Assembly (NCBI GenBank): GCA_013153315.1
Contig: JAADES010000027.1
Location: forward strand, 1-32,232
Origin: Aquificota bacterium
GTDB lineage: Bacteria; Aquificota; Aquificia; Aquificales; QOAS01
Length of the DNA: 32,232 nucleotides
Reading direction: 5' to 3'
Part shown: positions 12,091-21,495 of the stretch, in pieces
How the letters are laid out: every line of letters begins with the position of its first letter
Numbering within the stretch: position 1 is the first letter of the stretch
The notes under the pieces: model-generated
Seen by the model: the letters and a program-made list of their open reading frames with translations, nothing else
The model's database searches: none
What the model was told of the DNA's origin: nothing
Translations under genes and position numbers: made by a program

Positions 12091-13332
12091 TTATTCCGCA
12101 CTTTTTCCGAAAACGGTAATAAAAGCCAATACCCAAATAAGGACAAAAAATAAAACCGCCAAATGGTATTTCCTATATTTAAGGGCAACTATAAAGGCAA
12201 TAACGGTTTGGAGCATGTAATAAAAGGCGAAGGATTTGGAAGCGTAGGCAATTATTTGGAAAATGTTGGCACTCCATATAAGCACAATGTCAATAAGAGC
12301 CAATAAAAGGTAGCCTAAATTAGAGGAAATCCTTCCGTGGGTTTCCATATACAAAAGTCCCCCGGCGCTGGCTGTATCGGCAACGGCGGCACTAAATTGA
12401 CTGACCAAGGGGCCAACCTTAATGAGAAAACCTAAAACCAGCGATAAGGAGGCGGCTAAAACAATAATGGCGGTGGCCGAAAGGGGCATATTGTTCAACA
12501 GGTGGAACAGCGGAGTTATAAGCAATATAAAGGTAACGTAAATAAATCCCGAAATGATTTGTGCCAACCGCATGCTTTTTATTCGTTCCTCTACGGTAAA
12601 TTTCTCTTTCAAATATTTGGAGGTCTCAAACCCCTGAACTATTAGCAATATTCCCGCAAGTATTTGAAGGGTTTCAAAGGTTATAGGTTTAAAAGTCCCT
12701 TCGAAGGAAAAATGTTTTTCAAACAGCGTAAGGTCGTGAACGGCCAACCCAACAAGGAAGGAAAAAATTATTGAAAGGTTTATAGCCACCCCGTAGCGGT
12801 CTAAGAAAGCTAAAAAATCTAACCCTTTAAGGAAACCCGATATTCCTATAAACAACAATAGGGCCGTTGTTAATAAATTTTCCAAAAAGGGGTCTCGATG
12901 GAAAAAACCCGAAAAAATAAAGGCCGAAAGCAATCTTAAATAAAAGGCGACGGAAATAATATAGGAAAAGGCCAAAACTAGGTTGGAAAATCTTTCCAAC
13001 TCAACGAGGAAGATATGTAATTTCCTTTCGGGGGTTTGTTCGTAAATTAATGGTTCCGCATAGCGGATATTGAACCTTAATGCCGTTCCTATAAGGTAGG
13101 CCAAGGTAACTATCCCCGCCATAGCTAAAACGGCGTAATCGCCCACCGCATAGTAGAGCAAGGGGGCACAGACCAAATAACCACTCCCAATGATGGAAGC
13201 TAAGGGAATAACTGTAGCCCGCCAAAGCCTATTTCTTTCCAACTTTGGGTTTAGGAAAAAGGCGAACGCCAAAAGGAAGGCAATTGCTGTAATCCAATCC
13301 AAATAGGTTAGTTTGCTTAAGGAGACATCCAT
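12091..13332 (-). CDS. Multi-pass membrane protein, amino-acid-permease-like
   Basis: 413 aa; about 10 or more hydrophobic segments, IIGSGYLVCAPLLYY-type early TM motif. Confidence 0.65.
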   Translation of the reverse strand: MDVSLSKLTYLDWITAIAFLLAFAFFLNPKLERNRLWRATVIPLASIIGSGYLVCAPLLYYAVGDYAVLAMAGIVTLAYLIGTALRFNIRYAEPLIYEQTPERKLHIFLVELERFSNLVLAFSYIISVAFYLRLLSAFIFSGFFHRDPFLENLLTTALLLFIGISGFLKGLDFLAFLDRYGVAINLSIIFSFLVGLAVHDLTLFEKHFSFEGTFKPITFETLQILAGILLIVQGFETSKYLKEKFTVEERIKSMRLAQIISGFIYVTFILLITPLFHLLNNMPLSATAIIVLAASLSLVLGFLIKVGPLVSQFSAAVADTASAGGLLYMETHGRISSNLGYLLLALIDIVLIWSANIFQIIAYASKSFAFYYMLQTVIAFIVALKYRKYHLAVLFFVLIWVLAFITVFGKSAE

Positions 13333-14779: not shown

Positions 14780-16390
<1,611 letters not shown>

Positions 16391-16396
16391 AATTTT

Positions 16397-17344
16397 TTAA
16401 CTCCTTTTTTTGGAACTTTTAACTTCGAACCATTTAACGATACCGTAAACAAAACCTAAAACAAGAATTATTACGGCCAAACTTATTTTGAACTCTATAG
16501 GTTTGTTGTGTTGGAGAGAGGTTATTAGGGCCTCCCTGATGGTTGCGGCCAAAGCAACGCTAACGAAGGAAGAAACGGCAAATTCTCCACCCAGCATAAA
16601 TTTAATTTCGCTGTTAAGAAGCTCCAAAATAGTCCACAAAATTAAGAGGTCACCGAGGGCCGCTATTATACCGTGGGCTATACCCCCTTGGGCAATGTGG
16701 AGAATATCGGTAATAAACAGGTAAATAATAAATGCCGCCAAAATTATAAGGCCGGCCAATATAGCGGAGTCAAGCATTAACCCGACCTTTTTGGCTATAC
16801 CTAAGATAAACCTTCCCCAACGGCCGAGGTATAGAAGGAGTTTTGTTTCCGAATCAACGTAGTAGGAAATTAAAACGTCCAAATTTAGGTCTAACACTTT
16901 ATTTAAGGATTTCAACGCCGAGCGGAGCTTTTCTATTGTTTCTTCATCCTTTTGTTCTCGGATAACCTCAAAGATTTTGGAGTTAAAAAAGTTCCTCGCG
17001 TAGTCTATTAGCACAATGATATGGTGGGGAGAAAACCCTAATTGGAAAAATTTTTCTCCCATTGAAAGGAGATAGTTCAAATAAGCAGCATCATAGTTCC
17101 CTTCAAATAGTCGGTCATACCATTGGGAAAATTCTTTTTTTACCTTTTGAAGGTCGCTTTCATCCAATTCCTGCCGAAGGTCGGTGAATTTTTGAATAAC
17201 CTCCTCTATAAGTCTTAAAAATTCTTCCTTATAAGGTTTTAAATAGTTAGCCAAAAACTTTATACGTTCGGCATCCCTTCTTCCCAATTGGTGGAGTCTT
17301 AAAAGTCTTTCAATTTCGTATTCTAAGGTTGCTGTTACCGTCAT
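16397..17344 (-). CDS. Protoglobin/globin-sensor-like domain fused to PsiE-like membrane domain
   Basis: 315 aa; N-terminal half WYDRLFEGNYDAAYLNYLLSMGEKFFQLGFSPHHIIVLIDYARNFF resembles protoglobin helices E-G; C-terminal four-TM region with LWTILELLNSEIKFMLGGEFAVSSFVSVALAATIREALI resembles PsiE. Confidence 0.65.
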   Translation of the reverse strand: MTVTATLEYEIERLLRLHQLGRRDAERIKFLANYLKPYKEEFLRLIEEVIQKFTDLRQELDESDLQKVKKEFSQWYDRLFEGNYDAAYLNYLLSMGEKFFQLGFSPHHIIVLIDYARNFFNSKIFEVIREQKDEETIEKLRSALKSLNKVLDLNLDVLISYYVDSETKLLLYLGRWGRFILGIAKKVGLMLDSAILAGLIILAAFIIYLFITDILHIAQGGIAHGIIAALGDLLILWTILELLNSEIKFMLGGEFAVSSFVSVALAATIREALITSLQHNKPIEFKISLAVIILVLGFVYGIVKWFEVKSSKKRS

Positions 17345-17391: not shown

Positions 17392-19173
17392 CTAGGAGTA
17401 GTTAACTTTTAATTTCCAAAAACTGTATAAACCTTTCTCAATTATCTCCTTAAGTTCTTCTTCGGTAAATATCTGCCCCTCCTGGGGTCTCTTTTTTATT
17501 TGAAAAACTAAAACGGTATCCCCATCTTCCAACACTAAATTTTTACGGTTGAATTCTATTTCCTTTTGAAGGAGCTCCTTTAAAACCTGTGCCGTCGATT
17601 GGTGGGATATGTAAGAAACTACTTCTTTTGTATCAAGAATTTTTTTAGCTTCCTCAAAAGGTATAGGTTCAAAATCAAGTTCTCCTTTTTTGGGTTTTAA
17701 CATATTTAGCGAAAAGGTATTGGTCAAATAAACTTTCCCAGACATAACTTTTTCCTCCTCAAAGGGGATTTTAAAAGCTTCCTTGTCCTTATGGAGGACG
17801 GTTAAAGGAACATAATCCTCGAGGTAATAACCGAAGGCAAAGCTTACCCCCGTAGGGCCGTTAAAGGATAATTTTTTATTGGCAAAAAGGTGTTTATTTT
17901 TGCGGAAAAAGTGTGCCAAAACATGGCCTATAGTTTCAAAATTCTTTTCCGGTATCTGTTGGTTTTGTAAAGGCCCCTTGTAAAGGATATATAAAGTTTC
18001 GGGTGCTTGGAGTGGTTTTTCCCTATCCTTTAGAAGGATTTGTATCTTTTTGGTTTCTTTAGTAGGAGGAATTATTTCAAACAGCTCGTTAAAGTTTTTT
18101 TGAGGAACCTTTCTATCGTCCTCTATTGTGTAAATCTTTTTATAGGAAGTGTTGGATTTGTAAATGTAAAACTCCGTAGGGAGGCGTTTTTTAGAAAAAA
18201 CTATCCCGGAAAGGATAGAAACCGCGACCACCTTTTGGGTGTGGGCTATTCGAATATTTCCTCCAAAAGGTGTTAGAGCTTTAAAGACTTTCTCCTTAAG
18301 TTCTTCCAAAAGTTTATCCAACCAACGGCGGATTTTTAGGAAATCTTCCTTTTTTTCCTCCAGCGGGTTGTTGTAATGGAAGGGCTCCTCTATATGGAAA
18401 ACCTTTTTTAGGTATTCTTCTCCGAAAGGAAATTTTTCTTCAAATTCCAACGCGTGGTTTTTGTTGAATAGAACCGAAACGGGTATCTGTAAATCGGTTA
18501 AAAACTTATCGAGGTCTTGGATAGTTTTCATTTCCTCGGAGGGGAAAACCAAAGGTAGTTTTTTGCTTTTGGCGGTTTTAAGTTTGACTTCCAAACCGTT
18601 AACGGGTTCAATGTTTCCGTTTTCCAACAGAACACCTGTAAAGGCTAAATTTTCAGCCGCCTTTAAATAGCGTAGTGCCGAATAAAGGGCTAAGGTAAAG
18701 GACAAGCCTTCGAAATTTGTTTTTTCAAAAACTACAAAGAAACTTTTATTGGTTAGTTTCTTAACCCTTTCCAAACCCTGCCTTATTTCGTTAGCTTTTA
18801 AAAATAGTCCCTCGTCGGGAAAAATGATTTCTTCGGCCTCTATAGGGACTATAAGAGCCTTAACAATTTCACCTTCTTTATCGTTTTTCACAACGGGAAA
18901 TTTAGCCTCTATAGCTTCCCCTGTTAATACTTGGGTTGCTAAAGAAGTTTCTACACCCAACCTTTGGGCAAATAGTTCTATAGAAACCTTGTCCAGATGG
19001 TGGCGAAGGATTTTAAAGATTAAATAATTGGGGTTTATAGGAAAGCTTTCTTTGAAGGGCCCTTTAGCGGGAAAAAATTGAAGAAATAAATCAATATCGC
19101 TCCTCTCAACGGTTTGCAGTTTTTTAGCCTTATCTTCTAGCAAGAGATAGATATTTTCCAAATTCCAACCCAT
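17392..19173 (-). CDS. CalpL-like effector: Lon-type protease + SAVED-like sensor + C-terminal DUF1874/AcrIII-1 (Crn2) ring nuclease
   Basis: 593 aa. Lon-like: NFEGLSFTLALYSALRY (Ser ~158) and GNIEPVNGLEVKLKTAKSKKLPLVFPSEE (Lys ~197). SAVED-like middle: LSFNGPTGVSFAFGYYLEDYVPLTVLHKDKEAFKIPF. C-terminus: GKVYLTNTFSLNML...YISHQSTAQVLKELLQKEIEFNRKNLVLEDGDTVLVFQIKKRPQEGQIFTEEELKEIIEKGLYSFWKLKVNY, closely matching AcrIII-1 (KVYLANAFSINML...SIGHDSTIQLINSL...[36 protein letters not shown]). Confidence 0.85.
   Translation of the reverse strand: MGWNLENIYLLLEDKAKKLQTVERSDIDLFLQFFPAKGPFKESFPINPNYLIFKILRHHLDKVSIELFAQRLGVETSLATQVLTGEAIEAKFPVVKNDKEGEIVKALIVPIEAEEIIFPDEGLFLKANEIRQGLERVKKLTNKSFFVVFEKTNFEGLSFTLALYSALRYLKAAENLAFTGVLLENGNIEPVNGLEVKLKTAKSKKLPLVFPSEEMKTIQDLDKFLTDLQIPVSVLFNKNHALEFEEKFPFGEEYLKKVFHIEEPFHYNNPLEEKKEDFLKIRRWLDKLLEELKEKVFKALTPFGGNIRIAHTQKVVAVSILSGIVFSKKRLPTEFYIYKSNTSYKKIYTIEDDRKVPQKNFNELFEIIPPTKETKKIQILLKDREKPLQAPETLYILYKGPLQNQQIPEKNFETIGHVLAHFFRKNKHLFANKKLSFNGPTGVSFAFGYYLEDYVPLTVLHKDKEAFKIPFEEEKVMSGKVYLTNTFSLNMLKPKKGELDFEPIPFEEAKKILDTKEVVSYISHQSTAQVLKELLQKEIEFNRKNLVLEDGDTVLVFQIKKRPQEGQIFTEEELKEIIEKGLYSFWKLKVNYS
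17743..17760 (-). promoter_or_regulatory. Candidate internal ribosome-binding site and in-frame start for a free-standing Crn2 ring nuclease (17392-17745)
   Basis: Minus strand reads GAGGAGG (17754-17760), 8-nt spacer AAAAAGTT, ATG (17743-17745), in frame, one residue before SGKVYLTNTFS, the first strand of the ring-nuclease domain. Confidence 0.5.
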
Positions 19174-19233
19174 TTTTAACTCCCTAGAAATATCTAACGA
19201 AGGAAAAAGTTGAATATTGACCTTTAGGAGGTT

Positions 19234-20172
19234 TTAATCCAAAAGTTGCAACCTTAGGTTGGTTTTAAAAATATCCCCAATAAAGTTTTCAGGGTTTATG
19301 GGCAAAGTAATTCTTGGGAAAAGAATACCATTCCAAAGTTCTATTATTTTGTCCTCCAACTCTAAAAATATTTTGCCCAGCCTTCCCACAAAGTCGGGTC
19401 TCGGTTCTATAACCAACAAACCTTTTTCGGGATAGTATCTCCACATTAAGTTCTCGTTCCAACCTGAAGTAGTTTCTTGGTCCGCAGCTTTTGCAAGCTT
19501 TCTTTGGGCCTTAAACTCTTTCAGTAAGGCGTTTATTTTTTGGGTTTCTTCCATTTCCTTTAGAACCATAGCCTGCAAGGTTCCATAGCGGCGGGCTTCC
19601 TCTTTTTTGAATTCTTTTTTTATACCCCCCCGAATTTTACCCGCCCCCTTGCGCCAGCCTTTATAAACTTCCCAAATTTCTTGAATTTTTCCTAAAGGAA
19701 TTTTTCCAACCTTCAAAACTACCCTATCCGGGAGAATTTGGGAAAACCAACTTAGGGGAAACCAAATAAACAACTTCGGTTGGGCTATATATACCTTCCG
19801 GTAAAGGTCTAAATCTTTCAACTCCTCGTTAGGGGACAAAATTTTTACCAAAACATCATCGGGAGTTGCAAACTGATAGAACTCCGAAAGGGGCACTAAT
19901 CTAACTTCCCCAACTTCTGGATTTATATCCCACACAACAAAAAGTAAAGGAAGCCCATCTATAGATGGTGTTATTTCAATTACATCCCCAACTTCTGGTT
20001 TTTCTGGAATTTTAAAATCCTTATTTAGTTCTTTTTCAATTTTTTCCTTGGGAAGGTTTACCTTTTCTTTTCCTTCAAGGTTGGTTTCCACAAAAATATC
20101 TTCCAAAGGGATATCTTCCAAGGGTTCCTTCATGAGTTTATAAAGTTCAAATAGTTCCTCTAGACGGTTCAT
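19234..20172 (-). CDS. CalpT-like candidate anti-sigma / protease substrate with MazF/PemK-like SH3-barrel region
   Basis: 312 aa; EVGDVIEITPSIDGLPLLFVVWDINPEVGEVRLVPLSEFYQFATPDDVLVKI resembles a MazF/PemK-like barrel; charged linker follows; lies between the sigma-like gene and the protease gene, as expected for CalpT. Confidence 0.55.
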   Translation of the reverse strand: MNRLEELFELYKLMKEPLEDIPLEDIFVETNLEGKEKVNLPKEKIEKELNKDFKIPEKPEVGDVIEITPSIDGLPLLFVVWDINPEVGEVRLVPLSEFYQFATPDDVLVKILSPNEELKDLDLYRKVYIAQPKLFIWFPLSWFSQILPDRVVLKVGKIPLGKIQEIWEVYKGWRKGAGKIRGGIKKEFKKEEARRYGTLQAMVLKEMEETQKINALLKEFKAQRKLAKAADQETTSGWNENLMWRYYPEKGLLVIEPRPDFVGRLGKIFLELEDKIIELWNGILFPRITLPINPENFIGDIFKTNLRLQLLD

Positions 20173-20174
20173 TT

Positions 20175-20975
20175 TTATTTTTCCTCCTTACAGGTCTTTA
20201 AACGGAGTTGTTCGCACAGTTCGGACAGGTAATTAATCACAAAGGTTCTAACATCTTCGAGGTCAAATCCGTATTGGTCCCGTAAACGTTCGAGGAATTT
20301 TATAACCTTGTCCTTCTTTCGGGAAGCATCTTTATAAATTGCCGTTTGGCTTTTATTTCCCCACAAACACTTGTAAACTTCTTTCCCGTCCTTAAGAAGG
20401 AAATAACAAAAATATTTGAAATCCTCGGGAGGGACTTCTTTATGAAATATCTCCTTTAGGTGGATTATCTCTAAAGCTTCAATTTCCTTTTCCGGGAAGA
20501 TGGTTAAAATTTCTCCCTCCTTTAGACGCTGGGCAAATTCTTCCCCTTCGGGGGATTGTTGGATTTCTATATCTTCCACCACTAAAGTTTTTGTTTCTTT
20601 CCTCCAAAGGTCTATTAAAAAGTTCCTAACAAGGGTGTATAAATATCGCTTGCACTCAACCAGTTTGGTGATTAAAACTTCCAACCCGCGGCGGGTATTG
20701 GGAGAAACCAACTTTAGGATTAGTTCCGAAATTAAATCGTCCAAACATTGGGTGTAGTCAAGCCTTTTTTTGGAACAAATAGCCTCAACTAAATCGGATA
20801 CTTGAGAAAGATTTTGTTTTGCTTTTAAAGAAGTCGCCGCTTTAGCAGAAACAATTCTTATAACCCGTTTTAGTTGCGTTTGTAACATTAACCAGCTGTG
20901 GTTATCTAAAGTTTTATTTCTAATAAGTTCTGCAATAAGTTCACAAATATCTTTGTGGGAAGGCTCACCCATCAT
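20175..20975 (-). CDS. ECF-like sigma factor (CalpS-like)
   Basis: 266 aa; region 2-like LVECKRYLYTLVRNFLIDLWRKETK; region 4-like segment ALEIIHLKEIFHKEVPPEDFKYFCYFLLKDGKEVYKCLWGNKSQTAIYKDASRKKDKVIKFLERL; start overlaps the upstream gene. Confidence 0.65.
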   Translation of the reverse strand: MMGEPSHKDICELIAELIRNKTLDNHSWLMLQTQLKRVIRIVSAKAATSLKAKQNLSQVSDLVEAICSKKRLDYTQCLDDLISELILKLVSPNTRRGLEVLITKLVECKRYLYTLVRNFLIDLWRKETKTLVVEDIEIQQSPEGEEFAQRLKEGEILTIFPEKEIEALEIIHLKEIFHKEVPPEDFKYFCYFLLKDGKEVYKCLWGNKSQTAIYKDASRKKDKVIKFLERLRDQYGFDLEDVRTFVINYLSELCEQLRLKTCKEEK

Positions 20976-21495
20976 TCTCTCCCGTATTAAATTTTTTTAA
21001 TTCAAAAGCAACAACTTGCTTAAGCCGTGGGTCGCAGGCTTCTTCGGGGCAAAAACCGCAAAATTCTGAGCACTCTAATAGTATCTCCTTGGCAAAACGA
21101 AATAAATAACACACCTGCCGCCCGTCCCTTAATTTAAAAACTTTAGAAGGTCGGGGAGAAATCCACCGACAGTTGGAATTGTTATTAAAGTTGCACTTTG
21201 AAAGGTCTATTTCTAAGCTTTCCTGAGTATGGAGATTTAAATCTATATCGGTTTGGCAATAGAAATTTTCCTCCGAAGTAGAAAGAAAAACAATAAAAAC
21301 CTCATTGGGTTCTTCCCTGTGAACAACCTTAAAAGGTCTTCTCTCTTTGAAATGCCAACCGAGGGGAGAGAAAGCTCTTTTTAAAAAATCCTTACAACGG
21401 TTTTCGAAAAAATATCCAAACCTGCAGGGTTTTATCCAATTTTTATTCTCACTTTGGAGATTTTCAAAAAGTTTTTCAAACTCGGGGTGTAACAT
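20965..21495 (-). CDS. Cys-rich protein of unknown function, first gene of the CalpL-like cassette
   Basis: 176 aa; ORF overlaps the downstream sigma-like gene by 11 nt; C-terminal CSEFCGFCPEEAC cluster. Confidence 0.7.
   Translation of the reverse strand: MLHPEFEKLFENLQSENKNWIKPCRFGYFFENRCKDFLKRAFSPLGWHFKERRPFKVVHREEPNEVFIVFLSTSEENFYCQTDIDLNLHTQESLEIDLSKCNFNNNSNCRWISPRPSKVFKLRDGRQVCYLFRFAKEILLECSEFCGFCPEEACDPRLKQVVAFELKKFNTGENDG

Follow-up and report, generated by a model that had tools for sequence, protein, structure and literature searches.

In this work, we describe a gene encoding a globin-PsiE fusion protein in a stretch of 32,232 nucleotides from an Aquificota bacterium (contig JAADES010000027.1, here called the window). 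The reading frame lies at positions 16397-17344 on the reverse strand (-), to which the coordinates of all its parts given below also refer; it is intact, encodes 315 residues followed by a stop codon, and is single-copy in its genome. Residues 8-166 (16847-17323) form a protoglobin or globin-coupled-sensor (GCS) domain, matching Pfam family PF11563, Protoglobin, with an E-value of 3.8e-19 and 69.7 bits against a cut-off of 25; residues 194-306 (16427-16765) match PF06146, PsiE, over model positions 8-120 of 122 (E-value 2.1e-15, 57.4 bits against a cut-off of 23.9). Both scores are far above the curated cut-offs and bear out the fusion of a globin-sensor domain to a PsiE-like membrane domain, which had been proposed in a first-pass annotation. 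The four transmembrane (TM) helices proposed for the C-terminal half were likewise recovered: they are predicted at about residues 192-214, 224-244, 257-277 and 283-305, in agreement with the helices of the structural model and with the hydropathy profile of this region, in which two peaks are strong and two are weaker. Linker helices connect the globin to TM1 (residues 134-186, 16787-16945), within the modelled helices 134-172 and 175-218. At the C-terminus Pfam found PsiE alone, cyclase, kinase and MCP transmitters being absent; no STAS domain was matched in the protein at E-values up to 10. The probability that the gene is an artefact, be it a mis-joined contig, a frameshift or a chance similarity, is practically nil: strong profile and fold matches speak against it, and this reading is refuted by the independent assemblies, six in number, that carry the same fusion, Phe99 included.

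An AlphaFold2 model, built on 56 homologues, reached a mean pLDDT of 85 and a pTM of 0.58, with pLDDT above 90 over most of the globin and 66-87 over the membrane part, the relative placement of globin and PsiE being unreliable. The modelled globin superposes with a TM-score of 0.87 both on the haem-bound GCS globin of G. sulfurreducens (GsGCS, 2w31) and on that of AfGcHK (5ohe), which, together with the RsbR-type 7o0i, are also the best solved relatives by sequence. A globin fold was obtained, and the lack of any structural similarity to globins, envisaged in the first-pass annotation as a possible outcome, did not arise. The fold search returned no solved relative of the PsiE half. The N-terminal half of the protein has the GCS globin fold, and the C-terminal half is a PsiE domain.

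The PsiE half shares Glu241, Lys248, Phe260, Ala267 and Arg270 with E. coli PsiE (b4030), which matches PF06146 at 1.3e-22. All 63 proteins have Glu241 (16622-16624), in predicted TM2, and all 61 that cover the position have Arg270 (16535-16537), in predicted TM3; the two residues may pair. The E. coli protein differs in being a stand-alone polypeptide of 136 residues with no sensor, and in matching the NCBIfam PsiE models, while the fusion protein matches no NCBIfam model, those of the PRK02833 equivalogs included. A PsiE-family gene has also been described in a transmissible protein-quality-control locus (PMC5347186).

The globin is normally a haem-based gas-sensing domain. Its relatives feature a proximal His at position F8 and a usual, not universal, distal Tyr at position B10; both residues are missing in the window protein. 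Residue 99 (17048-17050), checked at the codon level and in alignments, is a Phe replacing the proximal His, as had been noticed beforehand, and sits exactly at F8, in the column that in GsGCS 2w31 holds the proximal His of the IGxxH motif. Across the aligned Aquificota relatives, 55 sequences have His in this column, and the 7 members of the genus to which the window belongs (hereafter, the genus) have Phe; in none of the alignments does the window protein have a His at F8. Similarly, residue 47 (17204-17206), at B10, is Glu where relatives carry the distal Tyr. Among 52 full-length Aquificota relatives from outside the genus, 51 have His at F8 and 48 have Tyr at B10; within the genus, F8 is Phe in all 7 species, and B10 is Glu, Ser, Thr or Ala. 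The haem-type combination is likely ancestral, because GsGCS also features His at F8 and Tyr at B10.

In the alignment of the genus, a further set of characteristic residues is found at the FG corner and the start of helix G (residues 105-114, SPHHIIVLID, 17003-17032), where Ser105, His107 (17024-17026), His108 (17021-17023) and Asp114 are fixed. Ser105, His108 and Asp114 are genus-specific, and replace Pro, Tyr and Asn of the relatives; His107 is common to nearly all relatives with His at F8, GsGCS included. This divides the earlier suggestion that either His of the PHH motif might serve as an alternative haem ligand: the occurrence of His107 in haem-type relatives makes it a weak choice of replacement ligand, and His108, as a genus-specific residue, would be the better candidate.

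The fusion is not peculiar to this organism, as might have been supposed. It is present in 7 of 7 genomes of the genus. A single-sequence search gave matches in 89 of the 136 Aquificota genomes, many of them spanning the full length; searching 391 genomes with a profile yielded another 14 near-full-length proteins, spread over 10 families from outside the Aquificota. Six of these 14 proteins were scanned against Pfam, as were two further Aquificota proteins, and all eight contained both domains. Given its occurrence through the Aquificota and in 10 sampled outside families, globin-PsiE is an old and widespread architecture. Judged by its residues, it would ordinarily be haem-competent, nearly all members keeping the F8 His and most the B10 Tyr.

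On a tree of the PsiE half, from which the sensor columns were left out, the state of F8 changes four times, and loss counts are to be read as lower bounds for the sample of genomes searched. The changes fall in the genus (Phe), in family f115, outside the phylum (Gln, Leu), in a pair of eroded sequences and in one sequence with Tyr. The whole-protein tree also features four changes, and places the genus as a 100/100 clade beside family f5. The two f115 proteins have lost both the F8 His and the B10 Tyr, keep both domains and feature no His at 107 or 108; according to the trees, this loss is independent of that in the genus. The eroded pair, from Aquificota (L057:732-1532 (+) and L058:746-1546 (+)), has kept PsiE and features an eroded globin region with no protoglobin match. 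The Tyr sequence, from family f2 (L056:961-1848 (-)), has kept the B10 Tyr and possibly binds a Tyr-ligated haem. Some Aquificota contain a stand-alone PsiE of about 145 residues, and in the f5 homologues (L017 to L032) some 30 extra residues separate the globin core from the last globin helix.

No phylum-wide conserved neighbourhood was found among the Aquificota families compared, and no pathway emerges from gene order. In the genus, the gene converges with pyrH, and in the f5 genomes sampled it is flanked by dapA and dapB. In two distant lineages it adjoins secA, following it in one f3 genus (L095-L097, L119) and preceding it in f115 (L160, L161), either by chance or because of a possible connection with protein export. 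No plasmid-borne copies were found. Four co-directed frames of 593, 312, 266 and 176 residues lie upstream of the gene (17392-21495 (-)). The first encodes a protein that combines a Lon-like protease domain with a STIV B116-like domain at its C-terminus; full-length relatives of it were found in family f2, but not in most of the genus; the other three have no Pfam match, and the whole stretch looks like an acquired island. Elsewhere in the window, 14780-15616 (-) encodes only the C-terminal half of UvrB (278 residues, UvrB model positions 404-658). The uvrB gene is split genus-wide, as seen here and at G000:C47:19254-19529: a C-terminal half of about 260-290 residues occurs in 7 of 7 genomes, and in several of them the N-terminal half is a frame of about 410-430 residues on a different contig. 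Finally, 12091-13332 (-) encodes a strongly hydrophobic, permease-like membrane protein of 413 residues with no Pfam match.

The substitutions at the haem site are not explained by a loss of haem biosynthesis, a cause we rejected, ferrochelatase being present in 7 of 7 genomes: the genus still makes haem. Cytochrome bd is found in 6 of the 7 genomes, and a haem-copper oxidase in none of the 7. Anaerobic or low-oxygen life was likewise discarded as sole cause, f5 having the same oxidase pattern, yet keeping His at F8. Loss of the haem site is moreover specific to globin-PsiE, because the other protoglobin gene found in 4 of the 7 genomes keeps the F8 His in all four.

Taken together, these data favour, with a probability of roughly 0.7, a membrane-anchored GCS with PsiE as its output module, the sensor of which has been converted to haem-free operation in the genus, in the manner of RsbR. 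The F8 His and the B10 Tyr have been lost in the genus, with the fold and the output staying under selection. The loss of the F8 His does not by itself prove loss of haem, because globins with unorthodox ligation, such as HGbRL, exist (PMC4476040). The main rival is in fact a globin still binding haem through another ligand, most plausibly His108, or at a swapped site, and remaining a sensor of gas or redox state, though with a changed ligation. This would fit the fixation of His108 in place of Tyr in all 7 species, together with Phe99, the ability of the genus to make haem, and the precedent of a GCS globin whose proximal and distal sites are swapped, with Lys-His ligation (PMC4476040). We consider it unlikely, however, because the B10 Tyr has been lost too, with different substitutes within the genus (Glu, Ser, Thr, Ala), which is not what is expected of a tuned haem pocket, because His107 is also found in haem-type relatives, and because the independent f115 pair lost F8 and B10 with no His at 107 or 108. 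Of the non-haem or alternatively ligated switch of the first-pass annotation, the non-haem branch has accordingly gained from the loss of B10, the fixation in 7 of 7 species and the f115 case, and ligation by His107 has lost ground.

The globin might also be a decaying remnant, or a mere structural or assembly domain, PsiE being the sole working part in a lineage heading to a stand-alone PsiE. The PsiE half is indeed better conserved within the genus than the globin (81% against 62% identity), a faster evolution of the globin that part-way decay would also give, and other Aquificota feature an eroded N-terminus (L057, L058) or PsiE alone. Yet the fold-forming residues persist, with a strong profile match in all seven species, and the FG corner is the most conserved globin stretch in the genus, 11 of 15 positions being invariant over residues 103-117, against a mean of 31%, with new residues fixed. 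In the one pair of the genus that is not saturated, all others being so, the globin features a dN of 0.045 and a dS of 0.9, that is, a dN/dS of about 0.05, and it remains under purifying selection. In addition, the PsiE tree places the genus with f5, apart from the eroded clade. The conserved FG corner and the low dN argue for a retained, partly new function of the globin rather than decay, which we regard as improbable, more so than altered ligation. More speculative still is the idea that Ser105, His107, His108 and Asp114, fixed when the haem site was lost, form a new ligand or metal site, or a dimer contact, gating PsiE, and that haem sensing has been swapped for other inputs more than once.

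Among known systems, GsGCS is the best match by both sequence (phmmer 1.3e-10; family profile 2.6e-45) and fold. Its full-length form continues into a transmembrane domain, and we presume that it may itself be a globin-PsiE protein. It differs from the window protein in that it retains the F8 His and the Tyr of column 47, and in its bis-His ligand at E11 (PMC4476040), where the window protein has Phe. The stressosome globins (7o0i, matching the family profile at 4.8e-19, and B. subtilis RsbR) resemble it as globin-fold sensors without a classical enzyme output, and RsbR is a globin sensor that lost haem (PMC4476040); RsbR, however, carries a C-terminal STAS domain and works in the cytosolic stressosome, in contrast with the membrane PsiE found here. 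AfGcHK, HemAT and DosC/BpeGReg share the sensor fold and the domain order, but are haem-bound and feature established kinase, MCP or cyclase transmitters, instead of a PsiE output and a globin missing both haem-site residues. The B. anthracis sporulation inhibitors pXO1-118 and pXO2-61 (3pmd, 3pmc) are globin-like sensor domains that contain no haem, their pocket being occupied by a ligand of another kind; they are weak fold matches (TM 0.68-0.72), have no sequence match to the window protein and differ in architecture. No published description of a globin-PsiE fusion was found in the open-access literature, and a haem-less globin-PsiE variant of the GCS kind appears undescribed in the open-access papers searched.

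According to the haem-free reading, the cytoplasmic globin, probably dimeric through its G and H helices as in other GCSs, would repack in response to an input other than a gas on haem iron; it might bind a small ligand in the pocket vacated by haem, interact with a partner protein, or respond to temperature or to the state of the membrane. The linker helices would then carry the signal to the PsiE bundle of four TM helices, of which the conserved Glu241 and Arg270 may be the functional element. In the relatives, O2, NO or the redox state at the haem would set off this relay instead.

Although PsiE is a common annotation in bacteria, we know of no established activity for it, and because of this its output role is inferred from domain order. 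That PsiE is so widely fused to a haem-sensor fold provides it with an input, and hence with a handle for studying it. As natural controls, the haem-less genus and the haem-less family f115 would separate the role of the globin fold from that of haem.
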